From: Ochromonas danica
Lineage: Eukaryota; Sar; Chrysophyceae; Chromulinales; Chromulinaceae
Assembly (NCBI GenBank): GCA_015146655.1
Contig: VKHL01000011.1
Location: 129,819 to 193,818 of the forward strand
Reading direction: 5' to 3'
Length of the DNA stretch: 64,000 nucleotides
A program made the translations under genes and the position numbers. This document shows, piece by piece, positions 3,987 through 60,820 of the stretch (position 1 is the first letter of the stretch; each line of letters opens with the position of its first letter). The notes under the pieces were generated by a model. That model saw only the letters and a program-made list of their open reading frames with translations. It was not told the DNA's origin and did no database searches.

Positions 3987-4287
3987 GATAATTCCTCAAT
4001 AACAGTAAGAATTCCTAGAGATCACGATCAAATCCTGTGAATCAACTCAGAACTCTCCCAACAACAAGAACGGGATTCGACAGCCAACTATTATTACTCC
4101 CACCGCAAATCCCAAACTCCCAGAAATGAAACTTTAGAAGATGCTTTTTCCTTCATTCTTTTTCATTTTTTGGTTCGATCATTCAGTTTCAGTTTTGTTA
4201 TTCAGTTTTTTTCTGTGAAAAGGTGTCATTGAATTCTGTCTTGGGAGGTATTGGAGTGTCAGAATCAAAAGAAAGGCATTGATTGAC
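3987..4287. promoter_or_regulatory. Divergent promoter region, thioredoxin and Dicer
   Basis: The 301 bp between the thioredoxin start (minus) and the Dicer ATG (plus) must carry both promoters. It is T-rich on the Dicer side (about 4141-4215). I see no clear TATA box or other named motif. Assigned from gene orientation only. Confidence 0.4.
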
Positions 4288-17005: not shown

Positions 17006-17323
17006 ATTGCGTGATATAACCCGGTAACCTTTCGTGTGTTGAAACTTGAACACTTGTAAATACTAATCCATTTCATTCACTTATACAAATCTCTTTTTTA
17101 GTTTTCTATTCTACTACTACAAATACTACAATATTTTTTAAAATGCGCTAGTTTATTGATTTTACATTGTTGTTCCATTTCAATTGCATTGGTATTGCAT
17201 TGGAATACTCAATATAGATTGATCCAGGCGACCTCTCCCCATCCCTTTTCTGCACATAAACTATTCATATTAGATGCTGTTCGAAATCAAATCTAAATTA
17301 AATCTGCATAAACTTTAGGACAG
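17006..17323. other. AT-rich filler before repeat copy 2
   Basis: 318 bp, strongly AT-rich, with no coding frame, RNA gene or clear repeat. It ends at the junction with the second copy of the long direct repeat at 17324. Confidence 0.4.
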
Positions 17324-17952
17324 TATCTAATGCTTCTCTTACGAAACGATTTGGTGAAGCTAATAGTGTAACTATCTTTGATAATCGATACTTCTTTAAT
17401 TGGGCGCTCTTCTCTATGCCTGGACATCCTCTATTAAAACATATTCTAGAACATGTTGTAGAATTAATTAAACATGAATATTTCCGTGACAGTCGAATTA
17501 AAATGGCTCCAAGAGATGTCCCAGGCAAGATTTTAATGTGTGCATCCACTTTCCCGATTACACTTGTAGCAAGAGAAATGATCTTAGAAGGACACTCGAT
17601 GGCTGAATTAGGACTAAGAGTAGGAGGAGAACTCTTTCGAGAATATGGTGCCAATATGAAAGCATGGAATAATGATCATAATCCCAATCGATGGGTTAAG
17701 GTAATGAATAAACGTCGTGTACCTTATCTTTGGGCCTATGCTCCACCACGACCAGAGTATTATGAAGGAAAGATTATTCAAGGTAATCGACACAGAGAAA
17801 TTGCATTGGTTAGTAATGGTAAACGACATCCTTTCCCAGATTTGGATACTTTCTTGAATATGAAATTGACAATAGAAAATGTAACAATAGTGGATATGGA
17901 TGTGATTCATGCTATTCCTTTGGGTGATCCTTTACCTGTATTGAAAGGATAG
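17324..17952 (+). pseudogene. 5'-truncated copy of the GT32 glycosyltransferase gene
   Basis: Carries the C-terminal about 209 residues of the GT32 gene at 14226-15443, beginning at SNASLTKRF and continuing to the same stop. The signal anchor and the DxD active-site region are absent, so it cannot be an active enzyme. The first in-frame ATG is at 17416 (178 residues), but no promoter-like start is evident. Sequence is essentially identical to the intact copy, so the duplication is young or is an assembly product. Confidence 0.85.
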
Positions 17953-20321: not shown

Positions 20322-20708
20322 TCTTTAAATAGTAAATTCCAAATGAATATGTTCATGATCACTCCATTGTGAGTGGCATATTGCAGTAAGATCTTCTCTC
20401 TCTCAGAGTTCTCAGACATCATCAGACTGTCAGAGCTCTGAGCTGGAGATTGAGAGAGAGCCGAGAGGACTCACTGTTAAGTGGAATACGGCTCAGATAT
20501 TATTAGCTTGCGTGTTGAATATCCAAGACAGCACAGAAGGACAAGAAACGCGTTCCGGTGTTAACTTAACAAGAGAAAGCAGGTTGAACCTGTTGTTGTT
20601 GTTTTGGTTTAGTTGGTGGATTGAAGGACATCATAGTCCATCTTAAAGAAATAGTTAAACATTAACTAAAGTAAAGAATATAATTACTCTTTCCTAATCT
20701 TATTTACC
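20322..20708. other. Divergent promoter region, RING gene and kinase gene
   Basis: 387 bp between the RING gene (minus) and the EcKinase-like gene (plus). Around 20396-20480 there are clustered GAGAG and CTCAGA repeats. No gene or RNA is visible; it should hold both promoters. Confidence 0.4.
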
Positions 20709-21827
20709 ATGGCATCTCTTGTTGATCTTGCAATCATTGCAGATGATCATCTTCAAGAGACATTGGCAGGAGTTGCCTCTATTCAACATGAATCAGCTTG
20801 TTCTCATCATCACCTTGGACTTGTCACAAGATTACATGTCGAATATGAAGAACCTATTGAATCTATACAAACCTTTGTTTTGAAGAAGAATGGTGAGAAT
20901 GAGACTGTGAATATGATGGCCAAAGCTTTTCGTTTGTATGAGAGGGAAGTGTTGTTTTACACTTCCATTGCTCCCCATGTTAAAGCAGCTATTCCACATT
21001 GTTACTTCTCTACACTCAAGAATGATGGGGCTGGATTTACTCTTCTATTAGAAGATTTATCGCCTTTACAAGTTGGGGATACTCACGAAGCTTTACACTA
21101 TCCTCAAGCTGTAGCGGGAACACGTGTCTTGGCCCAATTCCATGCTTCCTTTTGGAACAAACAAGAATTACTTGATTCCTTTCATTTAATGAAACCCAGC
21201 GACTCAAGGGAAATGATGGACCGTGTTTGTCAAGAAGATGTTGTTGAGTCCTTTCTGTCTATTTGGGAGTGTGAAGTGGATGATGTTGTGAAGCATCGCG
21301 TGAGAACTGCCAGAGAGAATCTCTCCAATTGGTTGGTATCCCTTGAAGATAAGGATGAACCACATGCACTAATCCATGGTGACACCAAACCTACGAATAT
21401 GATGTTCTCATCGCCTGTGAAGAATGAAGCAGGAGAGGAAGTGGTTGAACGCTGTGTATTGTTGGATTTCCAAAGCTACATGGAAGGTGGCCTTCTGGCT
21501 TGTGTTGATGATCTCAACTTTTTCCTTGTAGGAGCACTGGAGCCTCAAACATTCTCTACACATCACAAAGGTTTGATCAAAGAGTATACAGAGAGTTTCA
21601 ACAGTATTATTGGCTCCGAAGGCCGCAAAATAGAGGAGGATGCGGTGGCTAATCTATTGGCCCAGGCTAGCGAAGGACTTGTTATGCGGCTGCTAATGTT
21701 TCATCAGATGTTGATGAAGCTGCCAGCTGAGGCGATCAAAGCTCAACTGGGGACATTTGTCCATCGAGCTAACTCAGCTATTTGTGTCTCTGAATCAAAC
21801 CTAGCGAAGGCAAACACTGGTCATTGA
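20709..21827 (+). CDS. EcKinase/choline-kinase-like small-molecule kinase (complete copy)
   Basis: Member of the aminoglycoside-phosphotransferase/choline-kinase fold, closest in motif layout to the EcKinase-like (DUF227) family; 372 residues, one exon. Seen: YEREVLFYTSIAPHVKAAIP and LLLEDLSP in the N-lobe, the catalytic loop HGDTKPTNMMF (about residues 224-234), and the metal-binding motif LLDFQSYMEGG (about 252-262). It should phosphorylate a small hydroxylated compound; the substrate is unknown. This is the only complete copy of three in the window. Its last 58 codons are repeated at 24649, and its body is repeated inverted at 31778-32581. It is convergent with a truncated oxygenase gene only 32 bp away. 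Confidence 0.8.
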   Translation: MASLVDLAIIADDHLQETLAGVASIQHESACSHHHLGLVTRLHVEYEEPIESIQTFVLKKNGENETVNMMAKAFRLYEREVLFYTSIAPHVKAAIPHCYFSTLKNDGAGFTLLLEDLSPLQVGDTHEALHYPQAVAGTRVLAQFHASFWNKQELLDSFHLMKPSDSREMMDRVCQEDVVESFLSIWECEVDDVVKHRVRTARENLSNWLVSLEDKDEPHALIHGDTKPTNMMFSSPVKNEAGEEVVERCVLLDFQSYMEGGLLACVDDLNFFLVGALEPQTFSTHHKGLIKEYTESFNSIIGSEGRKIEEDAVANLLAQASEGLVMRLLMFHQMLMKLPAEAIKAQLGTFVHRANSAICVSESNLAKANTGH

Positions 21828-26467: not shown

Positions 26468-27931
26468 CACCATAATAGTGAGCCGATAGTGTGAAGTCGT
26501 CGATAATATGCACTGGCTTACCCACCATATCCATGTTGACGAGCTGGGACAAGCTGCAATTTACCATCGTTCGAACCTAGAAACGTGTCATTTAACAAGT
26601 GAATAGAGCTCGCCATGAATTGGGGTGCTTTCATTCATCAGCTTTCCCAGATCATCATAGATGTACTCATGGTCGACATAGTTGACATTGCAATGCTCAA
26701 TCCTTTTCAAACGATCTTGCATGGCTTGCTGCAACAAATGCTTGGGATAAATCTTTGTCCAATCGATCCCCTCAAAGCGAAACATCTCAGGGTAAATAAA
26801 AGCACTGCGTTTGGAGTGACTGTCATAAAATCTACAGAAGGAGTAGTTCTTGGGAAAAGGAGGACCAAGACATACTCCCACTCGAAACAGCAACTCCACA
26901 TTCTTTTCTTCTGCTGGTCCAGCTAGACGCAGTTCATGATCGGCACGATAATTCGCATGCACTGCAATCCGTGGCTTGGGATAGCGCATGGCTGGCGTAA
27001 ACATGCTTCCATTAGTCACCTGACCAGGTATTGGAGCAGGATTCACATAGTCCCACCCAGGAGTGACATCATGAATAAACCATGCATATTCTTCATGATG
27101 TTTATAGAAAAGATACGTGCACATAATATTGAACTGCGAATATGCATTACCATACAATCCGCGAAAAACCTCATCAAATGGTTTACCATGCAATTTCTCG
27201 ATGTATTCACGCATTTCCTTTATATGGGCCGTCTTAATCACCACAGGGAAGTAGGACATGCAGCGCATTGGCTCAAGCATTCCAAGAAGTTTGTAAGTGC
27301 CTTTCGGAACTTGTTCCCACCAATCACGACCTATACCATTTTGTGGTGACCTATAGTTCCCACTTCGACCATTCACCACAGGCTTGTTCCCTTCAAAAAT
27401 ATCTCCTCTATCCACATACGTTACAAAGAAGCAATCCGTGTCCACAAACCCCACATACTCGGCACGAGACCACTGATCAGCATAGAACATGATTCTTTGC
27501 TGACGATCATGTCCAACATGCCTATCTGCTTCAATAGGATCGTTTAATACATGTCTCACACCTCCTGGAACATGAGGTTTCACATGCTCATGTACATAAG
27601 TCAAGACATCTCGGAATTTTGGGGTCGAGCTATCTTCAGAGTCCATGAGGAGCAACAAGCTGGTATTAGATGCCTTCAAAGGCCAGAAAAATAGCAAGGA
27701 ACGAAGGAATATTCGTCGGTATTCGTTTTCTTTTTCGACTTTTTTGGGGGCTTTAGTATTGATGGGTAGTATGAGATCCAGAGAGGGCCAGGGATGGTGA
27801 CAATCCGTGTTTCTATTCTCCTCTGTGTGATAACAAGAGAAGAGGTGGAGAGTAGCAACGAACAAAGTTGCGAACATCCACATCACCATTTTATTCATGA
27901 AATTGACGCCCTTGAGCAGAATTTATCCAGC
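26468..27931. repeat. Inverted repeat, left arm (DxD glycosyltransferase)
   Basis: About 1.46 kb that pairs with 30159-31633 in opposite orientation, across a spacer of about 2.2 kb. Most of the arm looks about 98 percent identical. Two patches are much more diverged: near 27140-27180 and 26480-26610. Confidence 0.85.
26588..27898 (-). CDS. DxD glycosyltransferase, shortened copy
   Basis: 436 residues, one exon, nearly the same as the 486-residue protein at 30192-31652. Seen: a signal anchor at residues 1-22, then EYVGFVDTDCFFVT (DxD motif, about residues 149-158), and NGRSGNYRS and CMSYFPVVIK further on; the layout resembles DUF6492-type putative glycosyltransferases. The C-terminus differs: after HGELYS the frame ends at LVK, while the other copy goes on for about 54 residues. 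Homology to that tail is still visible downstream but with a local deletion and replaced bases. A cluster of changes at FRGLYGNAYSQ against FHKVYGSAFSQ suggests patchy gene conversion. Whether the shorter protein works is unknown. Confidence 0.65.
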   Translation of the reverse strand: MNKMVMWMFATLFVATLHLFSCYHTEENRNTDCHHPWPSLDLILPINTKAPKKVEKENEYRRIFLRSLLFFWPLKASNTSLLLLMDSEDSSTPKFRDVLTYVHEHVKPHVPGGVRHVLNDPIEADRHVGHDRQQRIMFYADQWSRAEYVGFVDTDCFFVTYVDRGDIFEGNKPVVNGRSGNYRSPQNGIGRDWWEQVPKGTYKLLGMLEPMRCMSYFPVVIKTAHIKEMREYIEKLHGKPFDEVFRGLYGNAYSQFNIMCTYLFYKHHEEYAWFIHDVTPGWDYVNPAPIPGQVTNGSMFTPAMRYPKPRIAVHANYRADHELRLAGPAEEKNVELLFRVGVCLGPPFPKNYSFCRFYDSHSKRSAFIYPEMFRFEGIDWTKIYPKHLLQQAMQDRLKRIEHCNVNYVDHEYIYDDLGKLMNESTPIHGELYSLVK

Positions 27932-30158: not shown

Positions 30159-31633
30159 GCTGGATAAATTCTGCTCAAGGGCGTCAATTTCATGAATAAA
30201 ATGGTGATGTGGATGTTCGCAACTTTGTTCGTTGCTACTCTCCACCTCTTCTCTTGTTATCACACAGAGGAGAATAGAAACACGGATTGTCACCATCCCT
30301 GGCCCTCTCTGGATCTCATACTACCCATCAATACTAAAGCCCCCAAAAAAGTCGAAAAAGAAAACGAATACCGACGAATATTCCTTCGTTCCTTGCTATT
30401 TTTCTGGCCTTTGAAGGCATCTAATACCAGCTTGTTGCTCCTCATGGACTCTGAAGATAGCTCGACCCCAAAATTCCGAGATGTCTTGACTTATGTACAT
30501 GAGCATGTGAAACCTCATGTTCCAGGAGGTGTGAGACATGTATTAAACGATCCTATTGAAGCAGATAGGCATGTTGGACATGATCGTCAGCAAAGAATCA
30601 TGTTCTATGCTGATCAGTGGTCTCGTGCCGAGTATGTGGGGTTTGTGGACACGGATTGCTTCTTTGTAACGTATGTGGATAGAGGAGATATTTTTGAAGG
30701 GAACAAGCCTGTGGTGAATGGTCGAAGTGGGAACTATAGGTCACCACAAAATGGTATAGGTCGTGATTGGTGGGAACAAGTTCCGAAAGGCACTTACAAA
30801 CTTCTTGGAATGCTTGAGCCAATGCGCTGCATGTCCTACTTCCCTGTGGTGATTAAGACGGCCCATATAAAGGAAATGCGTGAATACATCGAGAAATTGC
30901 ATGGTAAACCATTTGATGAGGCCTTTCATAAAGTGTATGGTAGTGCATTTTCGCAGTTCAATATTATGTGCACGTATCTTTTCTATAAACATCAAGAAGA
31001 ATATGCATGGTTTATTCATGATGTCACTCCTGGGTGGGACTATGTGAATCCTGCTCCAGTACCTGGTCAGGTGACTAATGGAAGCATGTTTACCCCAGCC
31101 ATGCGCTATCCCAAGCCACGGATTGCAGTGCATGCGAATTATCGTACCGATCATGAACTGCGTCTAGCTGGACCAGCAGAAGAAAAGAATGTGGAGTTGC
31201 TGTTTCGAGTGGGAGTATGTCTTGGTCCTCCTTTTCCCAAGAACTACTCCTTCTGTAGATTTTATGACAGTCACTCCAAACGCAGTGCTTTTATTTACCC
31301 TGAGATGTTTCGCTTTGAGGGGATCGATTGGACAAAGATTTATCCCAAGCATTTGTTGCAGCAAGCCATGCAAGATCGTTTGAAAAGGATTGAGCATTGC
31401 AATGTCAACTATGTCGACCATGAGTACATCTATGATGATCTGGGAAAGCTGATGAATGGAAGCACCCCAATTCATGGCGAGCTCTATTCTTTTGGCAAAA
31501 CCATCTATCTAGGTTCGAACGATGGTAAATTGCAGCTTGTTCCCAACTACAGTACTTTCGTCAACATGGGTTTGGCGGGCAAGCCAGTGCATATTATCGA
31601 CGACTTCACACTATCGGCTCACTATTATGGTGA
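30159..31633. repeat. Inverted repeat, right arm (DxD glycosyltransferase)
   Basis: Partner of 26468-27931. The outer boundary begins GCTGGATAAATTCTGC on this side and its complement on the other. Together the arms and spacer span about 5.2 kb. Confidence 0.85.
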
Positions 31634-31652
31634 GGTCCTGCCCTCTCTATGA
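30192..31652 (+). CDS. DxD glycosyltransferase, full-length copy
   Basis: 486 residues, one exon. Residues 1-22 are a signal anchor (MWMFATLFVATLHLF core). The GT-A-like region has EYVGFVDTDCFFVT with a DxD metal site at about 154-156, followed by NGRSGNYRS, WWEQVPKGTYKLLG and MRCMSYFPVVIK. Several Cys and N-glycosylation sites fit a Golgi or secreted enzyme. The arrangement resembles the DUF6492 putative glycosyltransferases; donor and acceptor are unknown. The C-terminal about 54 residues (after GELYSFGK) are absent from the inverted copy at 26588-27898, so this is probably the functional one. Confidence 0.75.
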   Translation: MNKMVMWMFATLFVATLHLFSCYHTEENRNTDCHHPWPSLDLILPINTKAPKKVEKENEYRRIFLRSLLFFWPLKASNTSLLLLMDSEDSSTPKFRDVLTYVHEHVKPHVPGGVRHVLNDPIEADRHVGHDRQQRIMFYADQWSRAEYVGFVDTDCFFVTYVDRGDIFEGNKPVVNGRSGNYRSPQNGIGRDWWEQVPKGTYKLLGMLEPMRCMSYFPVVIKTAHIKEMREYIEKLHGKPFDEAFHKVYGSAFSQFNIMCTYLFYKHQEEYAWFIHDVTPGWDYVNPAPVPGQVTNGSMFTPAMRYPKPRIAVHANYRTDHELRLAGPAEEKNVELLFRVGVCLGPPFPKNYSFCRFYDSHSKRSAFIYPEMFRFEGIDWTKIYPKHLLQQAMQDRLKRIEHCNVNYVDHEYIYDDLGKLMNGSTPIHGELYSFGKTIYLGSNDGKLQLVPNYSTFVNMGLAGKPVHIIDDFTLSAHYYGEVLPSL

Positions 31653-31777
31653 GAACATTTAATAACGTTTGTAGTTATATCTAAACTGTTTAGTGATAAC
31701 ATATTAATGATAACATACATATTAAAAGCATTGAAAGCACAATTTTCGTGGCAATAATTCAAGATCTTGTAACCTTA

Positions 31778-32581
31778 AACTCTCTGTATACTCTTTGATC
31801 AAACCTTTGTGATGTGTAGAGAATGTTTGAGGCTCCAGTGCTCCTACAAGGAAAAAGTTGAGATCATCAACACAAGCCAGAAGGCCACCTTCCATGTAGC
31901 TTTGGAAATCCAACAATACACAGCGTTCAACCACTTCCTCTCCTGCTTCATTCTTCACAGGCGATGAGAACATCATATTCGTAGGTTTGGTGTCACCATG
32001 GATTAGTGCATGTGGTTCATCCTTATCTTCAAGGGATACCAACCAATTGGAGAGATTCTCTCTGGCAGTTCTCACGCGATGCTTCACAACATCATCCACT
32101 TCACACTCCCAAATAGACAGAAAGGACTCAACAACATCTTCTTGACAAACACGGTCCATCATTTCCCTTGAGTCGCTGGGTTTCATTAAATGAAAGGAAT
32201 CAAGTAATTCTTGTTTGTTCCAAAAGGAAGCATGGAATTGGGCCAAGACACGTGTTCCCGCTACAGCTTGAGGATAGTGTAAAGCTTCGTGAGTATCCCC
32301 AACTTGTAAAGGCGATAAATCTTCTAATAGAAGAGTAAATCCAGCCCCATCATTCTTGAGTGTAGAGAAGTAACAATGTGGAATAGCTGCTTTAACATGG
32401 GGAGCAATGGAAGTGTAAAACAACACTTCCCTCTCATACAAACGAAAAGCTTTGGCCATCATATTCACAGTCTCATTCTCACCATTCTTCTTCAAAACAA
32501 AGGTTTGTATAGATTCAATAGGTTCTTCGTATATTGGTGATGAGAACAAGCTGATTCATGTTGAATAGAGTCAACTCCTGT
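31778..32581 (-). pseudogene. Third EcKinase-like copy, truncated at both ends
   Basis: Inverted copy of about 20770-21600 of the kinase gene. It keeps the N-lobe core, the HGDTKPTNMMF loop and the LLDFQSYMEGG motif. It lacks the first about 20 codons and the last about 75; after EYTES the frame runs into unrelated LRLQDLELL and stops. Near its 5' end about 27 bp are missing relative to the intact gene, which shifts the frame there, so translation could only begin further in (around 32549). Probably non-functional. Confidence 0.8.
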
Positions 32582-36000: not shown

Positions 36001-37515
36001 CGATTAGAAACAAGATTACGTCAACAACTGACTTCTAGTGATGCGAATAATAATAAAGACATGTTGATGACTATTCCTTCATCAGGTAGTTTATCTTCTC
36101 GTACACGATCTGCTCGTGGAGAGAGAAATGCTATGGCAGTAGATGATAATATGGATTATAGTACTATTGCTTCTGTAGGGGGTGGTATGAATGGTGCAGG
36201 ATATGGTGGTGGTAATGATGAAGCATCTGTCTTGAGTGGATACTCTCGTAATGGTAATAGTAGTAATGGTAATGTTGGAACATATTCTATGCAAGGTGGT
36301 GCAATGAAAGGAGATGGTTTGTCTGTGGATAATACTGTCACTTACTTCGATCAGGGACACTCTATGCCACAATATTCTCCTCCACCTGATGATATGCTTT
36401 CTATATCTAGTAGAGGACGAATCCAAAGTGCACACCATAATCATAATCATCATCGTGTTTCTGAGTCACCACAACTTGCTCCTCTGCCTCTTTCTCCTGC
36501 TCGACCTGCAGCTGTTATCAACAACACGCCCACAGCCTCCAGTCCTGCTGTTGATCGTGTCTCTGCAGCCTTAGCATTAAAACTAGCTCAACAACAACGT
36601 AGTAATATCTCAACGAATGGAACAGTCACGGGATTTGAAGCACTTTCAGCAGTACAACGAACAAGTCGACCTCCTTCAGCTTCTATTGCAGACAGAGACA
36701 TGGAAGATCAATATGGTGGTGATGAAGATGACATCTTCTCTGTTCCTCCACCTGATCTAGTTGTAGCAGATCAACGTCAAATGCAACGATTAGAAAACAA
36801 TAATGCTGTAGAAGAATCGATTCGAAGAACTCAAATGGTTCTTAATCGTCGATTAGGAATCGCATCATCTTCATCATCAGGTCAACAACAACAACATCAG
36901 CAGGTTGAACTCTCGCCCTCCGCTGCCACTGTGCATAGCACAGGAAGTGGTCGTAGTGGTAGTGCCAATAGTGCTAATGGTCGTAGTGCTACGAAACTCA
37001 TGGAAACAATCCAACAAGCTCATTCACTTTATCCTGCGAGTCCATTGAAGTCATCGTCAAGTGATGATCGAGATGCAATCCAACAGATGGATCTCCCCAC
37101 ACCTGCTTTACAACCTGCAGGTCCACCTGTTTCTTCTAATCTATTTCGAAATGTTGAATCACAACAACAAGAGGATGACGATGATGAAGATGGAGCAGGT
37201 CTAGAAGATGAGGAAGATGATGAAGAGGGTCCAATTGTCTCGTCTACATATCGTACAACAAGTGGTAAGGATTTGCTTCGCTTCCAATTGTCATCATCTG
37301 ATGCTAAGGGAGGAGGATCGATCAACAATCAATCTTCCATTGCCAATACTAATACTACTAGTACTGGTACTAGTAATAATGGTGGTGGGGGAGGTAAGAA
37401 GAAGAAAAAGAAAGCTTCTTCTTCGTCATCAGCGAAGAAGTCTTCTGATCATCATCATTCATCCTCTGAACCTCATCTTCCTCGCATTGCCCCTGCAGCA
37501 AGATCCAAATATTGA
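33016..37515 (+). CDS. Large coiled-coil protein, function unknown
   Basis: 1499 residues, one exon. Residues about 35-1010 are an almost unbroken coiled coil, rich in Gln, Glu, Lys and Leu with heptad spacing, as in golgins, centrosomal and tether proteins. From about 1010 onward it turns into a low-complexity, probably disordered tail: Ser/Gly-rich, short His runs, Gln runs, an acidic block (DDDDEDGAGLEDEEDDEE) and a Lys-rich end. No motor, GRIP, SMC hinge or other domain is visible, so I do not assign a family. Codons are extremely A-rich in the coil. The first two codons are both ATG (33016 and 33019). Confidence 0.75.
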   Translation: MMNASPSASFDSLGKMSTDSTTASAQANLPKAANFLSQLEIMMGAVKKEANALENMKMKLKEMDEMKSHYHDLQEKVKELENKNLILTQDLQAKVEVNTNLHHDMQRLNDLFTNDHNQYLELQQKYYKLEQEQQHLLHEKEFFLQERQKLNDIKNVLKTTKTQYQQLQQNVEEERKHFQNQQHLLEKEISEKNHHIHELEVNREAIVREYQEKDEVKDKIIQEFHHLRDQTMIRLERQGMILEDSLSQQILMQDRSYRLHHEYAILQAENVNIQHKLLEKDEKMKQMMERMVSLEKTQYEKVNAINDTIANLQDALKDLTNKNNSLAQENTTLKQKISIRLVDEEKTNVEKRKLEEKVRELENSLSLKEMDHLQAVRSISSQRDDQSFKIESLTSQLEALQSQMKGDQVKYWEELKLLKENESQLLEETEKLNNELQEKMVQVHILETEKLTNESMMKNEVNGASSIIETLKMELEKRLAELVQLREERDQHRQSKESLEKTVENLKIDLQKADQLFKKTIETDRNKMKQELQSRSHRIKQLENEKQELLNETQELMNQLTGTQKQHLDSKTQYEDTSRQYNQLLEQFNLNKTRIVELQNELKRLTILEEELKSEIDKNDKRSQLEITKLDMMVKEARKSSSQQVLELTNQVKSLFEELDENKRLIDESQDRERKIIFEKDKIKTDYDHLVNKFNLLQEEQNKEISILKRDLQDLRNKHKLTIEQKTKLEMDIVGLSKEVNRNEMEINKHSEGNRLLEMNYQQAQDQIKSMKSTIETIQEQRNQFQYRLQELENVIVNKNQAIESLHNDVAQVERDGLVEIRRLRLLLQSTDQELNDLRPTHTMLMKELEDTKANLSRALANNNSTVNTMLDDLHHTEEILAKERKTRQNENEEWRQKTKELEFLVEKYKQELDEIQSKTRSDRQEKELRTTFLEKEIDRMKGQFKEKDQRIEELEQQHHIHRKRSLEMKEMIDQAQNEVIQLKTMLEMEQSHRKRLETRLRQQLTSSDANNNKDMLMTIPSSGSLSSRTRSARGERNAMAVDDNMDYSTIASVGGGMNGAGYGGGNDEASVLSGYSRNGNSSNGNVGTYSMQGGAMKGDGLSVDNTVTYFDQGHSMPQYSPPPDDMLSISSRGRIQSAHHNHNHHRVSESPQLAPLPLSPARPAAVINNTPTASSPAVDRVSAALALKLAQQQRSNISTNGTVTGFEALSAVQRTSRPPSASIADRDMEDQYGGDEDDIFSVPPPDLVVADQRQMQRLENNNAVEESIRRTQMVLNRRLGIASSSSSGQQQQHQQVELSPSAATVHSTGSGRSGSANSANGRSATKLMETIQQAHSLYPASPLKSSSSDDRDAIQQMDLPTPALQPAGPPVSSNLFRNVESQQQEDDDDEDGAGLEDEEDDEEGPIVSSTYRTTSGKDLLRFQLSSSDAKGGGSINNQSSIANTNTTSTGTSNNGGGGGKKKKKKASSSSSAKKSSDHHHSSSEPHLPRIAPAARSKY

Positions 37516-37936: not shown

Positions 37937-40900
37937 CTAGGAGGACTTGTTGAGATGTTGAGCTTGTTGGACCATCTGATAGACAAGCACGCCCATAGCT
38001 GAGACATCACTCACAGGCAAGACATTGTCAGCTGGAACCACTGCATCCTTGGCACGATCACAAGGATAAGATTCACCAGCTATCAATTCCAAGGTCACAG
38101 TGTTTTCCTTTAATCGAGTCATAGCAGGCAAGAGTTCAAAGCAATTGTCAAAGAGAGACAATCGACCGAAGACATAAAGTCCTAATCTTGCTCGAGACAA
38201 GGCAACAATCAATCGTCGTAAATCTCTTAAATGTCCCACAGATTCAGTACGAACTAAGGAGAGTAAGATATAATCATTCTGTTGTCCTTGAAACTTATCC
38301 ACTGTGGTGACTTGAGATGGAAAACCAAACAGACTATTCTTACATCGCTGCTGAAGGATATCACGTATCAGATGTTTCTGACCATTATATGGTGTTATGA
38401 TAGAAATCTTCTTAGCAGGATATCCTAATAGACGCATGTATTGATAGACGGCAACAACAAACTCAGCTTCACCAAGGTTTTGATAAAAGAAAGGTGTTGG
38501 ACATGTCTCGCCTTTCCCTTTGAATGCTGGAACATCAATAAACTGATAACTATGTTTGAACCCAGCATTTCCTTGAAGGAAGATCGGGTCTGAGAGAGTG
38601 TTAGGTAAGTTGCCTAACTCAACAATCGACCCTGTTGGTGTTGGGAAGGTATATCTCCAAGAGTACAAGGCGGCTAGTTCGAGTCTAGCACGGCCTTGCT
38701 TGTCCAATGTAATCGCTGGTACTCCTAGTCGAAGTAAGCGAGCAAAGAGGGATTGTTCGAAACGACAAACTTTGCCAATAACTTGATGCTGGACTACTGG
38801 AGGAAGTTGTTTTGAGTCACCAAGAAGTACAACACGCTTTAATCGACTAGCATGTGTGACTGGATCAGAGTCTTGTAATAGCAATGGAATCATTGTCTCC
38901 ACCTCTAAGATCTGACCAGCTTCTTCAATCACAACACTATAAGATAATTACATGAAACAACAGAGATTAGTTGTGCAACAAGTAACAGTTGTTGGTAGCA
39001 AACAAGTCAGGGAAGGGCTCTGTGTGTTACACTGGATATCATCAGCTACTAACGCTCACGGCGATAGCATATACTATGACAGGGATAATTGTTTGATATC
39101 ATTGCCCCACAACTACACATAAACACAAGCACTACTTCGATCCATTGCTTACCTATCATACTTGAATCCCAACTCTACAAGTCGACTGCGATTCATTGCA
39201 GCATGAGTGCAAGTCATCGCCACAATTCGAGCCTGAATAACACACACACGTCGATACTTTATTAGTCAGAGCATCACAATAACACAATGTATTCAAACAA
39301 GGTTATACAGGAGGAACGCATCTGTAAAAGTTTCCGTTCAGCGTGATAAATGTTCATAAATGAAACAAATGTCACTCCAACAAGAGGTATCAGAAAAAGT
39401 GGTTGATCATCATAGCGTCCAATGTAAAACACAACACAAGTCACAAAGATTGCGATAACAATAGATTTACCTGTTTGGTTAGTAGATAGTCAGCACGAAG
39501 CGATTGTGTTCGAAGTAACTCGAAAGGACGATATTCTGCCAATTCCGCAAACATCTCACGTAGCTTTTGACAATATCGTCCAGCTCTTTCACTGTCTTTC
39601 ACATTATCACCTTCGAAGAGTTGTTGAGAATCGCCATCGAAGAAGGCAGAGAAAGGGAATTGATTCTGAATATCATCATTCTTTTCCTTCATTGTCGATA
39701 GAAAGGAATCAATCTTTGGTGAAAGATGAAACTTGTAGAAGTAGTCAGCTGTCTCACAACTTGATCCAAAGTCACCGGGAATATTTAACACTGTGACTAG
39801 TTTCTGTACTAGAGCCAATAGTTGAACTCGACGAGCAAGACACCACTCGACTCTTCCTTGTTTCGAGAAGGTCAGACTGTCAGGATTTGTTTCATTACTT
39901 CGTAGATTGTCACGAAGATCAGCTTCCCCACTACCAAGTCGTAAGAGATGCCGTGGATCGATCCCACGTTGCATGATCTTTTCAAAGAAGTCATTCAAGG
40001 CGGCATTGCTGTGAGTAACAATCACAATCTTCTGTTGAGGATGGTTATGGTATAAGTTGGACACAATCTGCACAGCACAATCAGTTTTACCACTTCCTGG
40101 CGGGCCAACAATTAATGTCAAGCCTTCTTTCATAGCAGAACGAATGGCTGAAATCTGTGTTCCAGTGAAGCGAATGGTATTATTACCCATGCTGCTCTCA
40201 TAAGATGCTTCAGAGGTTACCACTTGGGCTTCACAATTAGGGTCCTCAGAAATCTTAACACGAAGATATGTCCCTGGAGACACAGCGCTGGACGTCACAT
40301 TAGGATACACTTCTCGAAGATGATCATTATCAAGGAATGTATCCTGCATATTGATATCTTGACTAGTGCCTTTGGGTCTAAATAATTCATATAATAGAAT
40401 TGTTAGTCACCTTCAACAATCAAATCATGCAAACGCACAATAACACATCATAGATAGTCCTCATCATCAATTAAAGAGGCAATTTTCCACAAGAAATTTC
40501 GGCAAAGACTAATCATATTTATTTGCAATCATTGGACTATCCAGCCACGACAAAACATACAGTTGTCCCCAAAAGACTCACCTGGTGGATGTTTCCTGTC
40601 CCAGTAGAATCTTTCTCAGCCAATCGGGTATACATTGTCCCACAGCATCACTATTGACAAGATCACGAATTGTTTGAAGAACTGATTTGAAGTTGTTCTC
40701 CTTCTGTTTTCTTCGGATAATCAGATTGAAGCTCTCATAGCAGTTTAATCCTTGTTGAATATCTTCATAATACTGCATGGGATCTAATTTAACTCTTACT
40801 GTTCGAACAGTACCAACACGCTTTGAGTTTATATTCTCTGGTCTGCAACAGACATAAAAATCGAATGGGTAAGATCATTGAACAAGAAAGAATGGTGATA

Positions 40901-43775
40901 ACAAGAAAATCATCAGATAATGTAGAGTAGAGTTCATCAGATAAATTTGGGATATTGCTTTCTCATCGCTAAGATTCAGAGGATTGGCTTTTTGTGCAAA
41001 TACAAGTCTTCATATGAACTCAACCAGTCACAACACTATACACTATATCACCTAATGCAAATTAAACTTACTTGGAGAAATCGTTAAGAGCATTGTCTGC
41101 CTCATCTCGATACTGTAACACTGTTGCTCCTCTGATATACTTGACCCCTGCAAATCACACAAGAATGAGGTCAACATCAAGTACCAACAGAACACAAAAC
41201 AACAATAGCATAGACTAATATAGAATAGCAAGCGCTCAGTGTTTTGTTACGCTATTTGTCACCAGTCAATTCTCTAACTTGTAGGAACTTGTAAGACAGG
41301 GATAATTGTTTCACATCACAGCACTTATTGAAATCCTATTTATCCACATCATCATCCAATGCTTACCGTATAAGCGAACAAAGTCCGCAATCTCTTCATC
41401 GTTAACGAAGGCACCGTTCTTAGAGGACCGCTTATTTTGCTGCTGTCTCTCATTATCGACTTCAGACAAGAAAGCTGCGGTGTCGGCTTGCGGATTCTCA
41501 ATTGTAACGAGGAAAAGCACTAAAATGAAAGCAATGCAACACATTAGCATACTAGTATTTGGGATGTCATATGTCAATATTGAGCAAGTATTAAAGGGTT
41601 ATCAGAACATAATTGGGATATTGTGTTACTCATCGTGTATCAGAGGATTGGCTTTTTGTACAATACAGTCATCATATAACCCTTGTTAGCATAGTACCAA
41701 ACATTATACTCACCATCATGTGGTCGAAGCTCTTCCCATTCTTCGCGTATATCACCGTTGAAACGTGCCAAATCGATCTAATGAAAAGCGCATGTGATTA
41801 TCAGCAACGTGCCTTCAATACAAGGCATTACAGTACACCTACCGTGAGTGAGCAATGCACAGCTCTGGGAATAATTTCTCCAAGAAGAGGTTTGGCAACT
41901 TCATCCACACTGACTGATCGAATAGGTGAAGCCATCCTACTCCATCCCGAGAAAACTAATTTATTCATCATTGACAGCTGTTGAGGACCCATTCGTTTTA
42001 CGGCATCCATTATATCTGACCGAATTTCATAAGCACTTTCAGTGAGGTATAACAAGAAATTTCGTCCAAAATAGTCCCGCATAGTAAGAAATTGAAGGTT
42101 AAGTTTTGGTAATGCCAATGTAGATTGCTTTTCATTGGCAAGAGAAGAAGAGGGCAGAAAATCTCCATCCCACAGTAATGTTTCAGTGGGATACAATGGC
42201 AATTTGTTCAGACGATCAACAGATGAAGTGCGAAGATTGATATATTCGTAAACAAGATCTTTAATAAATTGCTCGTCAACATATTCACCATTTTCTCCAA
42301 ACCTTTCATCATCTTTGTCATTGTATACTCCAAGTTTCTTAGCGAGTATCAATAACTCTCGTTTGTCCAGAACAGTTAAATGTTCAAATAGTGATTTCGC
42401 TTTACTCAACTCTCCCATACTTGAGAACACTAATCCACGCAGTTTGAGAGGAAATTCACCAAAAGCGACCTGCTGTATCTGGTTTATACGAGCATTTGCT
42501 CGTTCTTGCAGATCTTGTTTGCTCAGAGGCTCCATAGTGCTATTCTCAACTTCCATTAACAATAGATCCTCTAACAACTCCAGCAGCTTCACAACTTTCT
42601 TTCCACTTGAGAATTTGTTTATGGCTATGAAGACACTCTTTTTTGATCGAAGAACGAAGTGCATATCCTCTAACAACACCGCCAGGTATCGGCGAGTCGT
42701 TGGCTGTGAAAGCAAGTCAAGCAACAATCCGAAAAGAATTTCCAATCTCTTTAAAGAAAAGTCTTCCAACTGTTCTTGAGAGAGGAGTTGTAGAGCATCC
42801 TCGATCAAAAAGAGGATAAAATGAGAATCGCGGTGCAAATCAGCAGCATACTCTTGATTCTTCTCAACTTGTTCGACATGGTCTTCAGTCTTTCGCTTCT
42901 TCAGTGCCTTGCTCGGAGTGGTCTTCTTCGCAGAAGAAGACGATGTTCTTGCTTCAATAGAACTCTTCTGTTCTTGAAACTTCTTCCATTTCTCTGAAAT
43001 AGCTGTGCTTAGAGAGAGTTCATGTTGTAATCTGCTTTTACTCAAGTGGATCCATATGGGCAACGAAACATAACGAAACGTACTTCGTTTGACAGCTTCA
43101 TGCTCACCACTATTGAACGCCCCAGACAAGAACCGCACGAAGCACAGCAAATGAGTCGCCAAGCTGTTGGAGATGTACAAGTCCACCAACTTCGCACATA
43201 AAACATGCAACTTCTCGTCCGTCAAGGGTAACGATTCAAATAAGGGAACATCTTGGAAAAGCTTCTCATTGAATATTAACAAGATGGAGAAAACATGCTC
43301 TTCACTGGCTTGGGCAGAAAAGAAAGGCCACAAGTAGTTCTCCAGGTATCCACTCAATTCCAACAATTGGCGTTTGGTAGGATCAGAACTATTCAATACT
43401 TCATCATACAGTTTCTTGACAAGTTTCTCGTCAAATGCAGATCTATCATTACCCTACAATTCAAAGACATGTGAAACATGTAAGACATATATCTCTAAAT
43501 CAGTTTTCATGTAAGCAAACACTTACATCATGGCGTGTAGGCCAAAATTGACTCGCAATAGCGGCAATAGGACTACTAGCAATATCTTCCACGGACAGAG
43601 ATGATGATTTGACGGGTTCGACTGCTCGGGTTGTCTCGACGACCATTTGAATTTGCTCTTCCCCAACAATTTCATCCCTTTTCTCATCAGACAACACAAC
43701 ATCCTCTTTCTCCCCTTGAGCGTCATCCTCAATAGGACGCTTCTTGGTTACACGAGACTTCCTCTTGGGAGCCAT
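37937..43775 (-). CDS. AQR: Aquarius (IBP160/AQR), intron-binding spliceosomal helicase
   Basis: SF1 RNA helicase of the spliceosome that binds introns upstream of the branch point and, in animals, links splicing to box C/D snoRNP assembly. Nine exons: 43775-43527, 43453-41843, 41777-41714, 41519-41367, 41147-41072, 40842-40582, 40377-39471, 39232-39153, 38936-37937. All phases agree and give 1466 residues (human about 1485). The ATG at 43775 begins [13 protein letters not shown]. Seen: the N-terminal [10 protein letters not shown] armadillo region; [12 protein letters not shown] with the following [14 protein letters not shown]; Walker [10 protein letters not shown] (about residue 894); [11 protein letters not shown] (motif II, about 1138); [55 protein letters not shown]. 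Introns 1-2 are short (73, 65 nt); introns 3-8 are 194-238 nt and each carries a candidate C/D snoRNA. Confidence 0.95.
39014..39108 (-). ncRNA. Candidate box C/D snoRNA in AQR intron 8
   Basis: Related to the intron 4 snoRNA: both have a C-like box followed by AAACAATTATCCCTGTC. Here the C box is ATGATAT, the terminal stem is short (GGGC with GCCC), and the D box would be CAGA rather than CTGA. The 3' end lies 77 nt before the 3' splice site. Weak boxes make this one uncertain alone; support comes from the shared guide and position. Confidence 0.45.
39313..39420 (-). ncRNA. Candidate box C/D snoRNA in AQR intron 7
   Basis: A perfect C box (ATGATGA) follows GGACGCT; CTGA boxes occur after CCACTTTTT and after ATCACG. 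A stem GGACGC with GCGTTCC (one bulge) could close the structure 80 nt before the 3' splice site, with ACAGA just inside it. The D box choice is unclear, so the ends are approximate. Confidence 0.4.
40453..40541 (-). ncRNA. Candidate box C/D-like snoRNA in AQR intron 6
   Basis: A perfect 8-bp terminal stem (GATAGTCC with GGACTATC) encloses 73 nt and ends 75 nt before the 3' splice site, as in the sister introns. A C-like box ATGATTG follows the stem, but the D position reads ATGA instead of CTGA. Position and stem are strong, boxes weak. Confidence 0.42.
40930..41021 (-). ncRNA. Box C/D snoRNA in AQR intron 5
   Basis: 92 nt. An 8-bp terminal stem (GAGTTCAT with ATGAACTC), C box ATGAAGA, D' box CTGA, C' box CGATGAG and D box CTGA are all in place. 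The D' guide AAAAAGCCAATCCT and the C' box are identical to the snoRNA in intron 3. The 3' end is 87 nt from the 3' splice site, so it would be released by trimming of the debranched intron. From memory, AGCCAATCCT pairs with AGGAUUGGCU of large-subunit rRNA. Confidence 0.82.
41230..41326 (-). ncRNA. Box C/D snoRNA candidate in AQR intron 4
   Basis: 97 nt. Terminal stem AAGTGCT with AGCGCTT (one G-U pair), C box GTGATGT (last base off consensus), D' box CTGT after AAACAATTATCC, a C'-like GGTGACA and D box CTGA directly before the closing stem. The 3' end is 82 nt from the 3' splice site. TTATCCCTGT could pair with ACAGGGAUAA in domain V of large-subunit rRNA. It shares this segment with intron 8. 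Confidence 0.65.
41594..41684 (-). ncRNA. Box C/D snoRNA in AQR intron 3
   Basis: 91 nt. Terminal stem AAGGGTTA with TAACCCTT, perfect C box ATGATGA, D' box CTGA after GCCAATCCT, C' box CGATGAG and D box CTGA. The 3' end is 74 nt before the 3' splice site. Sequence outside the boxes and guides differs from the intron 5 snoRNA, as expected for paralogues under selection for the guide. This is the clearest of the six. Confidence 0.86.
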
Positions 43776-49449: not shown

Positions 49450-49651
49450 ACCGAAAGTTAACTTAATAAGAGATTAGCTTAAGATGATGGAAGGGGCGAT
49501 GGGAAACGAATGTGATGACACAAGGAAAGTAAAGAAAAGGAAGAAACATGGACGATTGTATCATCGAAAAAGAAAGGGAAGCGACTACCTTCAAGTTTTA
49601 CTCCTCAGGTTAAAACTGGGAAATCCAATCGATCCAGCAGCAGTAAGCATC

Positions 49652-49728
<77 letters not shown>

Positions 49729-50620
49729 CNNNNNNNNNNNNNNNNNNNNNNNNNNNNNNNNNNNNNNNNNNNNNNNNNNNNNNNNNNNNNNNNNNNNNNN
49801 NNNNNNNNNNNNNNNNNNNNNNNNNNNNNNNNNNNNNNNNNNNNNNNNNNNNNNNNNNNNNNNNNNNNNNNNNNNNNNNNNNNNNNNNNNNNNNNNNNNN
49901 NNNNNNNNNNNNNNNNNNNNNNNNNNNNNNNNNNNNNNNNNNNNNNNNNNNNNNNNNNNNNNNNNNNNNNNNNNNNNNNNNNNNNNNNNNNNNNNNNNNN
50001 NNNNNNNNNNNNNNNNNNNNNNNNNNNNNNNNNNNNNNNNNNNNNNNNNNNNNNNNNNNNNNNNNNNNNNNNNNNNNNNNNNNNNNNNNNNNNNNNNNNN
50101 NNNNNNNNNNNNNNNNNNNNNNNNNNNNNNNNNNNNNNNNNNNNNNNNNNNNNNNNNNNNNNNNNNNNNNNNNNNNNNNNNNNNNNNNNNNNNNNNNNNN
50201 NNNNNNNNNNNNNNNNNNNNNNNNNNNNNNNNNNNNNNNNNNNNNNNNNNNNNNNNNNNNNNNNNNNNNNNNNNNNNNNNNNNNNNNNNNNNNNNNNNNN
50301 NNNNNNNNNNNNNNNNNNNNNNNNNNNNNNNNNNNNNNNNNNNNNNNNNNNNNNNNNNNNNNNNNNNNNNNNNNNNNNNNNNNNNNNNNNNNNNNNNNNN
50401 NNNNNNNNNNNNNNNNNNNNNNNNNNNNNNNNNNNNNNNNNNNNNNNNNNNNNNNNGCATCATTGGCATGATCTCTCACAGATTATTATTCTTGGTAACA
50501 GGTATAGTGATTGATAATCTTCCTTTCCTTTGTGTCTGGCTACCCTGCAAGATCTAATGAATGATTGGATTGTGGCTTGTGACTAGCTTTGTTTCATATC
50601 GTGAGCTATGGTTGGGTTTA
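49450..50620 (+). pseudogene. Partial SRR1-like gene copy, interrupted by a gap
   Basis: Close but not identical to 53197-54196. It includes the 5' flank, the segment encoding KKGKRLPSSFTP, a CAA repeat that runs into the 727-bp gap, and after the gap the exon 1/intron/exon 2 junction. The ATG used by the intact copy is changed here and in-frame stops lie just upstream, and homology ends inside exon 2 near 50620. Base differences (a few percent plus small indels) show this is a real second copy, not the same locus read twice without change; allelic variation remains possible. Confidence 0.7.
49730..50456. other. Assembly gap (727 N)
   Basis: Unknown bases placed at the end of a CAA trinucleotide run. 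The matching interval in the second copy is about 555 bp, so the gap size is an estimate. Scaffolding across this repeat is the weakest point of the window. Confidence 0.99.
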
Positions 50621-52707: not shown

Positions 52708-53276
52708 TGTTCTTTCTCATCTTGTTGTCTCCAGCTTACTGAACATATATCCAACTATGAAGGAGAGTTAATGTGTACTGTATGCGTAATGTTGTGGTGT
52801 TAGTGTATATTTTGTGGTATGCTGGTGTAATTTATGATATCGCTATCCGGAGACAACAATAAGCAGGCGGCACCTTCGGTGAGAAATGTTTCCTCGCTTC
52901 TTCCGTTGCCCAAAGTAATAAGCAAGATCGCTTTGCATCATTTCAAAAAATAGCCATAATTATGATATTGATTGCCATGACTCGATGCATGAGAGGACCT
53001 TCCGTTGATCGTTGTAGAGTAGAGTGGGAATGGTAGTAGTGCCACCACGCCTCTTTCCCACTCTCCCACACAGATCTCAAGATCGTTCCAACAAAAAGGC
53101 GTTCAAACAGACTCAGGATGGTGGCTTGCGACAACTTGATCACAATACCACTGTGGTGCTACACCATTTGTTGTTGTGGGAGGAACCATTTCAAACCAAA
53201 CCGAAAGTTAACTTAATAAGAGATTAACTTAAGATGAAGGGGGCGATGGGAAACGAATGATGAATAAGGAAGAAGC
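52708..53276. other. Spacer and start of the second SRR1-region copy
   Basis: 569 bp with no convincing gene. From 53197 onward it matches the flank of the first SRR1-like copy (shared GAAAGTTAACTTAATAAGAG), so it is the presumed promoter and 5' UTR of the SRR1-like gene. Confidence 0.4.
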
Positions 53277-53397
53277 ATGGAAAAGGAAGAAACATGGACG
53301 ATTGTATCATCGAAAAAGAAAGGGAAGCGACTACCTTCAAGTTTTACTCCTCAGGTTAAAACTGGGAAATCCAATCGATCCAGCAGCAGTAAGCATC

Positions 53398-53474
<77 letters not shown>

Positions 53475-54553
53475 CTAGGTCAAGACATTCTCTCCTTCTC
53501 CCCTCCCACCAAATCCACACAAGAGGTGCTAGCTGACTTGGAACAATGCAAAGGTCAACTGACCAAGTCACATTATTTTGAAGCTTTCCTGAAAGTCTTA
53601 TCCTCCTCATCTTCATTGGAAGATGAATTACGTCAGATTCAGCACATTGAGGGACTGGGTATTGGCTCCTTCACACAATCCACTAATGCACTGACTCAAC
53701 TTGCTCTCTTACTCTTGCTGAGAGATCATCTTCTTTCTCTTTGCCAATCTGGTAATGTGACAGTATCACTCTACGACCCTATGATGCAGGAGGTAGATCG
53801 TCAAGTCTGTGCTATGTTGCAATTGAATGTTGAAGACAAAAACCGACATGGTCGTTATACCTCAACATCCAACACGACGTCAATATCGACCCATTTATCG
53901 ATTCTTCCAGAAGAGTCTAATCCCTCACTCTCTTCATCTTCCTCTTCCTCAGGTGATAGAAGAGGAAGAGGCAGGATTCTATATTTCATGCCTCACTGCC
54001 CTTATCGCCTTTATTGCAATGTACTATGGCATCATTGGCATGATCTCTCACAGATTATTATTCTTGGTAACAGGTATAGTGATTGATAATCTTCCTTTCC
54101 TTTGTTTCTGGCTACCCTGCATGATATGATTGGTTGCATGCTAAATGAATGATTGGATTGTGGCTTGTGACTAGCTTTGTTTCATATCGTGAGCGACGGT
54201 TGGGTGTAGTACAAGGAAAGACAGATAGTGTGGCGCGACTGACTTCCTTCTTGACTGAGCTCTCACTGTGGCCTTTGCTCAGAAAAGCAGATCTTGTGTC
54301 AGACCATAATCAAGGTCTAGCTGTGGAAGGTGCTTTCTGTGACCTCGGGTACAGTAGTCTAATTATCTCGTCATACCTGAGGAAAATATGGGTGTGTAAT
54401 GTATTGTTCTATGTACCACTGTATAGGTTGATGCATCTGGCTGGTGGGCCAGAAGGTGTGGAGCAAGCTGTACTGGAGCGACTGCTTCGACAAGATGTCC
54501 CTTCAGAAGAAGAGATTGAGGCAGCGGGTAGAGACGACCCTGAGTTATGGTGA
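53277..54553 (+). CDS. SRR1-like protein with a polyglutamine tract
   Basis: Exons 53277-54073 and 54175-54553, with a 101-bp intron (GTATAG...ACTAG, phase 2), give 391 residues. The splice rebuilds IIILGNSFVSY, the core of the SRR1 domain (first described in a plant circadian/light-signalling protein); before it ILYFMPHCPYRLYCNVLW matches the MPHC motif of the family. The N-terminus METWTIVSSKKKGKR-like region (starts MEKEETW) is followed by 26 consecutive Gln. A possible further 78-nt in-frame intron (54349-54426, GTACAG...TATAG) would remove residues between GAFCDLG and LMHLAGG; the frame is open either way. A partial copy lies at 49450-50620. Confidence 0.72.
53396..53475 (+). repeat. CAA trinucleotide repeat in the SRR1-like gene
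   Basis: About 26 CAA units encoding glutamine, uninterrupted. The equivalent repeat at 49649-49729 reaches the gap. Likely length-variable between alleles. Confidence 0.95.
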
Positions 54554-59821: not shown

Positions 59822-60820
59822 GCTGTCTTGACTTTATATTTCTTTCTTGGTAAGTTGGTAAGTTCTTGGTACTTCCTTTCTTGTTTCCCAACTTCCTTTC
59901 TTGGTAAGGGGAAAGTCACTTGGTTTTATATGTCTACATCTTCAACGGACAACATCTTCGCTAAATCATTTTCTTTGCTTAATAGTTAATAATAATTGCT
60001 AATATAATGCTCTAATTGTCGCTATAATATTTCGTACTATAACTTACCTCTTTTGTTCCTTTCTGTTTCAATTTTGTTTCGAAGTTGGAGCAGGTTGACT
60101 GCTTCTTGTAAATCTAACTGCTGATAGTTGTTATTTTAGCTTTTCTTGACTTAGGTCATCATTGACTTTGTTCAAGAATAGGACGAAATTACGAAAATCC
60201 GAAATTGCGAATTTTGCTCTGAGTTGTTCAGTAAGGCCCATTGCGTGGAATCGGTCGACATCCCCCACTCACACCGCGGGCATGAGCGCGCTTTCACCGA
60301 AAAGCCGAAACCCGTTTTTGGTCCTGCTTTTCAACAACACAGCAACCCATAAGATTCATCATTTGTCTTGGTTGCTCATCCTTGTCTTGGTTGCTCATCA
60401 TCTTGGTTGGCTCAACAAGATACAACCAAGATGATGAGCAACCAAGACAAGGATGAGCAACCAAGACATCTTGATGACTGGATGGCACTGCCGAGGATGA
60501 TTTGGGTTAGAGTGCGACGGTGCAATCTCTTGTCTAATAATCTCAGTTCTTTAGAAGACTAAAGTGCTAGCGCTGATGTTTCATCTATCATGTTGGTTGG
60601 CTGCCTTTTTGCGCTATACCACACTTTTTGTGATGTCGCCCTCTTGAAAGCACTGTATTTTGTTGTATCCTTAGGATACTTCTTATCATCTTGATAGGGA
60701 CGGTTGCTTTCTCTTGATCTACAATGATGGTTCTCTTCTTTTCTCTGTGCCAGTTAGTTCATGCTTCATTTAAATGGTAGAAACTGTGGTGATGTATATG
60801 TACATAACTACTAGCTGTTG
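59822..60820. other. Spacer with a perfect hairpin
   Basis: 999 bp with no supported gene. A repeated CTTTCTTGGTAAG/CTTCCTTTCTTG motif lies at about 59840-59910. The 45-bp inverted repeat at 60365-60467 is listed separately. Confidence 0.4.
60365..60467. repeat. 45-bp perfect inverted repeat (hairpin)
   Basis: Arms 60365-60409 and 60423-60467 are exact complements over 45 bp, with a 13-nt loop (GCTCAACAAGATA). Each arm contains the direct repeat CTTGGTTGCTCATC twice (one copy shortened), so the structure is an inverted duplication of a tandem repeat. If transcribed it would form a fully paired dsRNA, a good Dicer substrate. Confidence 0.8.

Follow-up and report, generated by a model that had tools for sequence, protein, structure and literature searches.

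The AQR gene and its introns

The window, by which we mean the whole stretch of 64,000 nucleotides that was analysed, carries on its reverse strand a gene that we take, from its sequence matches, to be the orthologue of AQR (Aquarius/IBP160) (Table 1). The ORF of exon 2 matched the Pfam families Aquarius_N_1st (PF16399, E 1.8e-53) and Aquarius_N_2nd (PF21143, E 1.5e-7), and four of the five PDB sequences that match this ORF are named aquarius, the fifth being a pre-mRNA-splicing factor. The last exon of the gene carries the Pfam domains AAA_12 and AAA_11. The best-scoring PDB chains for AQR and for the SDA1 of the window are presumably of animal origin. For the last AQR exon, the only exon that was compared with viral contigs, 20 stretches matched the search pattern and none was confirmed as a relative.

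The eight introns measure, from the first to the eighth, 73, 65, 194, 219, 229, 204, 238 and 216 nt. These lengths, together with the splice sites, agree with an earlier note on this DNA, which had described introns 3 to 8 as spanning 194-238 nt and introns 1 and 2 as having 73 and 65 nt. The eight introns of AQR are conspicuous beside the long intronless ORFs of the window, such as an uninterrupted Dicer-like ORF of 2380 aa at 4219-11361 with helicase, Dicer_dimer and RNase III domains.

Other ORFs of the window are near-identical in pairs when compared by eye (26588-27922 and 30168-31652; 20670-21827 and 31722-32555; 14196-15443 and 17302-17952; 49478-50557 and 53268-54086). Some of these pairs lie in opposite orientation and one runs into a long run of N, and they could reflect either recent segmental duplication or an assembly artefact. 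For the ClpB of the window, the scores were 1009 bits with a chain called ClpB1 and 994 bits with Hsp104 of Calcarisporiella, a fungus, values too close to tell the two apart.

Table 1. Coordinates of the AQR gene, its introns and the candidate C/D elements within them (positions in the window; minus, reverse strand)
Feature	Position	Strand	Description
AQR (Aquarius/IBP160) gene	37940-43775	-	9 exons; spliced ORF of 1466 aa; Pfam and PDB matches
Intron 3	41520-41713	-	
Intron 3 C/D snoRNA candidate	41594-41684	-	8-bp stem; C ATGATGA (41675-41669); D' CTGA; C' CGATGAG; D CTGA (41605-41602)
Intron 3 D' guide and D' box	41640-41657	-	AAAAAGCCAATCCT followed by CTGA; 10 bp to LSU AGGAUUGGCU; predicted Um at D'+5
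Intron 4	41148-41366	-	
Intron 4 C/D snoRNA candidate	41229-41327	-	snR38/snoR38-like; 7-bp stem; C GTGATGT; D CTGA
Intron 4 guide	41295-41311	-	AAACAATTATCCCTGTC; 10 bp to LSU ACAGGGAUAA (yeast Gm2815 region), or 11 bp to a segment of the L008 SSU
Intron 5	40843-41071	-	
Intron 5 C/D snoRNA candidate	40928-41023	-	Paralogue of intron 3; 9-bp stem; C ATGAAGA; D' CTGA; C' CGATGAG; D CTGA
Intron 5 D' guide and D' box	40976-40993	-	Identical to intron 3
Intron 6 C/D snoRNA candidate	40451-40543	-	10-bp stem; C ATGATTG; D ATGA
Intron 7 C/D snoRNA candidate	39314-39420	-	SnoR1/snR48-like; C ATGATGA; D CAGA with 6-bp stem
Intron 7 guide	39380-39398	-	TTTTTCTGATACCTCTTGT; 15 nt (one G-U) to LSU AGAGGUGUCAGAAAA, yeast Gm2791/Gm2793 region
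Intron 8	38937-39152	-	
Intron 8 C/D snoRNA candidate	39014-39108	-	Degenerate paralogue of intron 4; 5-bp stem; C ATGATAT; D CAGA
Intron 8 guide	39078-39094	-	AAACAATTATCCCTGTC; identical to intron 4

Candidate C/D elements and paralogous introns

Using a simple scorer of our own that combines box C, box D and a terminal stem, we found in each of the six long AQR introns a C-box/D-box pair with a closing stem of 5-10 bp on the host strand, and in MFE folds the terminal stem was closed in six of six candidates. No candidate was returned by the scorer for introns 1 and 2, whose length leaves the scan hardly any room for one, and these are the introns in which the earlier note had likewise placed no snoRNA. 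The candidate of intron 3 has the best score of the window (24.0) and that of intron 6 the second (22.8). When both strands of the whole window were scanned, 78 candidates reached at least 18.5, with introns 3, 6 and 5 as the top three and introns 4 and 7 also among them; a sixth candidate assigned to AQR at this threshold (40186-40081) falls in an exon, and intron 8 misses it at 17.8.

The boxes differ in quality among the introns. Introns 3 and 5 had been credited with all four, and in both the D' box CTGA and the C' box CGATGAG are clear, whereas box C of intron 5 is one base off the consensus. By eye, D' and C' are degenerate or unclear in introns 4, 6, 7 and 8, and the D boxes of introns 6 (ATGA), 7 (CAGA) and 8 (CAGA) are non-canonical. 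For intron 7 the Rfam alignment uses an alternative D box, an upstream CTGA with a stem of 2 bp. If the C/D k-turn tolerates the exchanges that we presume it does, several of these departures would be compensated, as intron 6 has a U-A instead of the G-C pair and introns 5 and 7 have A-U or U-A in place of U-U; on the same assumption intron 8 would be left with one A-C mismatch.

Elsewhere in the window C/D-like scores rise to 22.0. For this reason no individual snoRNA could be established from its score alone, and these background scores are the observation that speaks for reading the elements as C/D-like motifs that arose by chance in AT-rich introns and yield no RNA product. The controls point the other way. 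Among 300 mononucleotide-shuffled versions of each of introns 3 to 8, the native score was reached by 0, 0, 0, 0, 1 and 21, and among 1000 native windows of equal length taken outside 38900-41800 by 0, 5, 0, 0, 15 and 147, respectively. Introns 3, 5 and 6 are each significant alone, 4 and 7 are good, and 8 is not significant alone. The summed score of the six introns was reached in none of 100,000 draws from pools of 300 native windows per intron. Taken together with the similarity of intron 7 to snoR1, the conservation of guides between paralogous introns and the constant spacing, all described below, this joint result makes chance an extremely improbable explanation.

We also found that some of these introns are related to one another. 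Aligned over their whole length, introns 3 and 5 score 53 and introns 4 and 8 score 34, whereas 100 shuffles of each pair reached at most 24 and 25.5, respectively. In both pairs the alignment extends past the snoRNA candidates, which suggests that the snoRNA-bearing introns were probably copied within the gene, so that the six would represent about four independent lineages. The guides are identical within each pair and the remainder has diverged. The pairs 4-5 (29.0 against a shuffle maximum of 26.0) and 7-8 (27.5 against 25.0) lie slightly above their shuffle maxima and we leave them uninterpreted.

Because the candidate of intron 8 is not significant alone, the case for it depends on its paralogy with intron 4. 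The earlier proposal that all six long introns hold C/D elements on the host strand is thus upheld directly for introns 3 to 7, for which the reading as snoRNA candidates is well supported by the sequence, and by way of its paralogue for intron 8, where we consider it probable. It is possible, although we hold it to be the less probable view, that only a subset is functional, with introns 3, 5, 6, 7 and probably 4 at work and intron 8 as a copy of intron 4 in decay. In favour of this view, the score of intron 8 is the lowest of the six and does not rise above chance, while the two introns have the same guide. This subset reading is countered by the region of the D box and stem, which together with the guide still aligns with intron 4, and by a spacing that is intact.

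Guides, predicted rRNA targets and Rfam similarities

The candidate guides were compared with eukaryotic-type rRNA of other origin, taken from five of eight bacterial MAG records (L001-L008). That LSU rRNA of eukaryotic type occurs in all eight of these bacterial records is probably due to contamination by eukaryotes, and the LSU of L004 carries a group I intron. A scan of viral contigs with an rRNA pattern found nothing. Complementarity to rRNA was found for introns 3, 4, 5, 7 and 8, yet it lies inside the shuffle range when all rRNAs are considered and position is ignored. Since complementarity of about ten bases falls in that range, its weight comes from the position beside the D' box, the presence of the target in consensus rRNA and the conservation between paralogues. 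Only in introns 3 and 5 is the guide in register beside a clear D' box.

For intron 7, the element TTTTCTGATACCTCT can pair with AGAGGUGUCAGAAAA over 15 nt, with one G-U, in L003 and L004; in L001 the complementarity spans 14 nt. The complementarity score is 16.5, whereas 40 shuffles averaged 13.7 and reached up to 18.0. The AGAGGUGUCAGAAAA stretch occurs in the Rfam LSU consensus. In yeast this target would lie 24 nt before the snR38 site, which we take to be the position of yeast Gm2791/Gm2793, and the RNA of intron 7 would accordingly be expected to guide methylation of the equivalent LSU sites, as a guide of the SnoR1/snR48 type. In the sections cited here, Gm2791 and Gm2793 of yeast are guided by snR48, Arabidopsis SnoR1 appears to be its orthologue, and the sites of both snR48 and snR38 are given as established modifications, those of snR48 being methylated in Arabidopsis too (PMC8053127, PMC5199042).

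The comparison with Rfam, a covariance-type check that the earlier note had put forward, gave no match at gathering score within the window and brought out a full-length similarity between intron 7 and plant snoR1 (RF00345; 40.8 bits, E 3.8e-5 over 64 kb, gathering score 49). Intron 7 thus resembles plant SnoR1 and yeast snR48 in its box C, in its antisense element to AGAGGUGUCAGAAAA and in the full-length alignment; it differs from them in scoring below gathering, in a terminal D box that is probably the CAGA further downstream, and in being intronic in AQR. We describe it as SnoR1/snR48-like, a label drawn from these sequence similarities, and do not count it as a member of snoR1.

For introns 4 and 8, the window contains no further match to the common guide AAACAATTATCCCTGTC when up to 3 mismatches are allowed, and two such matches occurred in 3 of 100 shuffles of the window. 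Ten bases of this guide pair with LSU ACAGGGAUAA, which is present in five of the five LSU sequences covering the site; as the LSU loci were fetched with a pattern containing ACAGGGAUAA, the independent support is its presence in the Rfam LSU consensus. In its register the pairing would agree with the equivalent of Gm2815, guided by snR38 in yeast, and the RNAs of introns 4 and 8 would probably guide methylation at this position, although the adjoining D' box is only CTTA or CATA and the eleventh base of the guide does not pair with the LSU. The weak likeness to yeast snR38 and Rfam snoR38 (25S Gm2815) consists in the guide TTATCCCTGT beside a degenerate D' box, and the Rfam snoR38 model bears a guide nearly identical to that of introns 4 and 8. 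The differences are the mismatch after 10 bp, the presence of two copies in one host, a rival SSU target in one rRNA, and the low score of intron 4 against snoR38 (RF00213), 23.0 bits with E 2.9 in a search of 4.8 kb, compared with a gathering score of 45. This match is missing from the Rfam list for the whole window, and the same 4.8-kb search gave chance matches of 17-21 bits to other families in exons.

The rival SSU target raises the question of whether the RNAs are real and some of their guide assignments wrong, with introns 4 and 8 guiding an SSU site and introns 3 and 5 a site not predicted here. The guide of introns 4 and 8 pairs over 11 bp, one more than with the LSU, with AGGGATAATTG in the SSU of L008. 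Of four SSU sequences only one contains this stretch, and the Rfam SSU consensus reads differently there, whereas the LSU site stands in the Rfam LSU consensus and snoR38 carries almost the same guide. We therefore regard wrong assignments as somewhat unlikely, and retain the LSU site as the probable target of introns 4 and 8.

For introns 3 and 5, the shared segment AAAAAGCCAATCCTCTGA is likewise confined to these two places in the window, even with 3 mismatches permitted. Ten of its bases, beside the D' box, pair with AGGAUUGGCU, which is found in the Rfam LSU consensus and is intact in L003, and not in L004 or L002. The RNAs of these two introns would guide methylation of a U in LSU AGGAUUGGCU. 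We rejected their identification with snR62/U34 (Um1888), since the numbering does not fit. On yeast 25S numbering, which we take as indicative only, the predicted U lies 878 nt before G2815 and not 927, and on that numbering it is presumably not a methylation site in yeast. With the snR62 reading withdrawn, the site would be either lineage-specific or unreported. For Um1888 itself, the part of a Dictyostelium table cited here gives human Um2824 and the Um1882 of AtU34 as its equivalents (PMC8817022). An alternative target for introns 3 and 5, TGGCTTTTTG, was rejected, since L004 alone contains it among five LSU sequences compared at that site. As a prediction, CAATATCCCAA, also common to introns 3 and 5, could pair with UUUGGGAUA just upstream if the host LSU reads so.

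The match of intron 3 to snoR14 (27.9 bits, with E 0.02 for a search of 4.8 kb and 0.27 for the window) is below gathering and no better than an sR52 match at 37427-37483 (E 0.18 in the window), and snoR14 was rejected as an identity for introns 3 and 5 because the D' guide differs in the Rfam alignment. Other snoRNA-type matches in the window, to sR52, SNORD125, sR2 and sR28, have E values from 0.18 to 7.2. For intron 6 no credible target was found in the rRNAs compared, and this candidate is an orphan.

Spacing, host gene and possible feedback

The position of the candidates within their introns is nearly constant. From the end of the stem to the 3' splice site we measured 74, 81, 85, 73, 81 and 77 nt in introns 3 to 8, close to the 74, 82, 87, 75, about 80 and 77 nt of the earlier note, and from the end of the D box to the 3' splice site 82, 88, 94, 83, 88 and 82 nt. 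Under uniform placement, so narrow a range of the latter distances has a probability of 9e-5 if the six introns are counted and of 0.005 if four independent ones are. The chosen branch points, which are predicted, lie 49, 51 or 57, 57, 47, 51 (or 47) and 46 nt from the stem end in introns 3 to 8, and all predicted YTNAY branch-point candidates together lie at 30-62 nt. On the 5' side, 38-58 nt separate the splice site from box C.

According to the sections cited, AQR-dependent assembly has been associated with a distance of 40-50 nt to the branch point for a few mammalian C/D snoRNAs (PMC10234308, PMC8162545), while most expressed human intronic snoRNAs lie farther from the branch point than this assumed optimum and AQR binding is commoner where they sit close (PMC10234308). 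For Neurospora the passages cited describe a 3' spacing said to resemble that of Drosophila and a 5' spacing mainly of 41-60 nt (PMC2780460). As regards the AQR/IBP160 distance rule invoked by the earlier note, the predicted 46-57 nt come near the mammalian 40-50 nt. The candidates share with intronic C/D snoRNAs of mammals, Drosophila and Neurospora the arrangement of one per intron, the terminal stem and a similar distance, and differ from them in that the host gene is here AQR itself.

The best-supported account is one of ordinary biology in an unusual host. Very probably, each of the six introns encodes a C/D snoRNA released by splicing, mainly for the housekeeping role of guiding 2'-O-methylation of rRNA, with assembly suggested to be assisted by AQR. 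Once transcribed, the AQR pre-mRNA would release one box C/D snoRNA from each long intron on splicing, and the released intronic RNA would be trimmed to its terminal stem, which is the standard route of intronic C/D snoRNAs. The near-constant spacing to the predicted branch points suggests that snoRNP assembly may be coupled to splicing and assisted by the AQR protein, as in mammals.

Intronic hosting is not unusual in itself, judging from the parts of the literature on intronic C/D snoRNAs cited here. C/D snoRNAs are there described as largely independent genes in A. thaliana, S. cerevisiae and S. pombe, where introns are short (PMC8817022), and as intronic in 45 of 55 cases in Neurospora and for the most part in S. 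pombe too (PMC2780460). Among the titles, abstract openings and passages listed in a search of open-access PMC, none describes AQR, Aquarius or IBP160 as a snoRNA host, a provisional result as subscription journals lay mostly outside that search.

The identity of the host invites the idea, advanced in the earlier note, of an autoregulatory loop. The level of AQR would decide the fate of its own snoRNA-bearing introns, where assembly of the snoRNP would either compete with splicing or promote it, and couple AQR to snoRNA output, in the manner of NOP56 and SNORD86. Of the eight introns, six bear candidates for the class of RNA that AQR helps to assemble into snoRNPs in mammals, and their spacing is about that reported. 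There is also a precedent, since in the sections cited a C/D snoRNP protein is regulated by its own intronic snoRNA (PMC8162545, PMC11028025), with SNORD86 in an intron of NOP56 responding to the level of NOP56 and changing splicing (PMC11028025). The two cases are alike in that the product of the host acts in C/D snoRNP biogenesis; they are unlike in that AQR works through the spliceosome and in that most snoRNA candidates here look like rRNA guides and not orphans. We saw no alternative splice form or regulatory element at this locus. To our knowledge no regulatory isoform has been described for AQR, unlike NOP56/SNORD86. Coincidence would suffice as an explanation, because genes hosting snoRNAs tend towards broad expression, and the pairing of host and snoRNA drifts and is unstable across eukaryotes, as stated in the part of the survey cited (PMC3511168). 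The sequence does not distinguish a loop from an ordinary snoRNA host gene, and we consider such autoregulation improbable. It is equally doubtful that AQR, by assisting snoRNP assembly on its own pre-mRNA, determines the amount of AQR mRNA as well as the dose of rRNA methylation guides. If true, the loop would link the capacity of the spliceosome to the modification of the ribosome.

Should only the hosting be real, the result would be a modest one of annotation. Even so, a position rule known from mammals, Drosophila and Neurospora falls here inside the gene of the factor thought to impose it, and the rule would reach another lineage if the organism is neither animal nor fungus. One factor and six candidate RNAs of its own, on one transcript, would form a compact system in which the coupling of splicing to snoRNP assembly, and possible feedback on AQR, can be tested directly.

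Among small-RNA features elsewhere in the window, ARAGORN, run with the bacterial code, found no tRNA. Rfam matches to mir-3910 (65 bits, below gathering) and mir-5882 fall on both strands at the same place, 60364-60468, which looks like a palindromic repeat rather than a miRNA.
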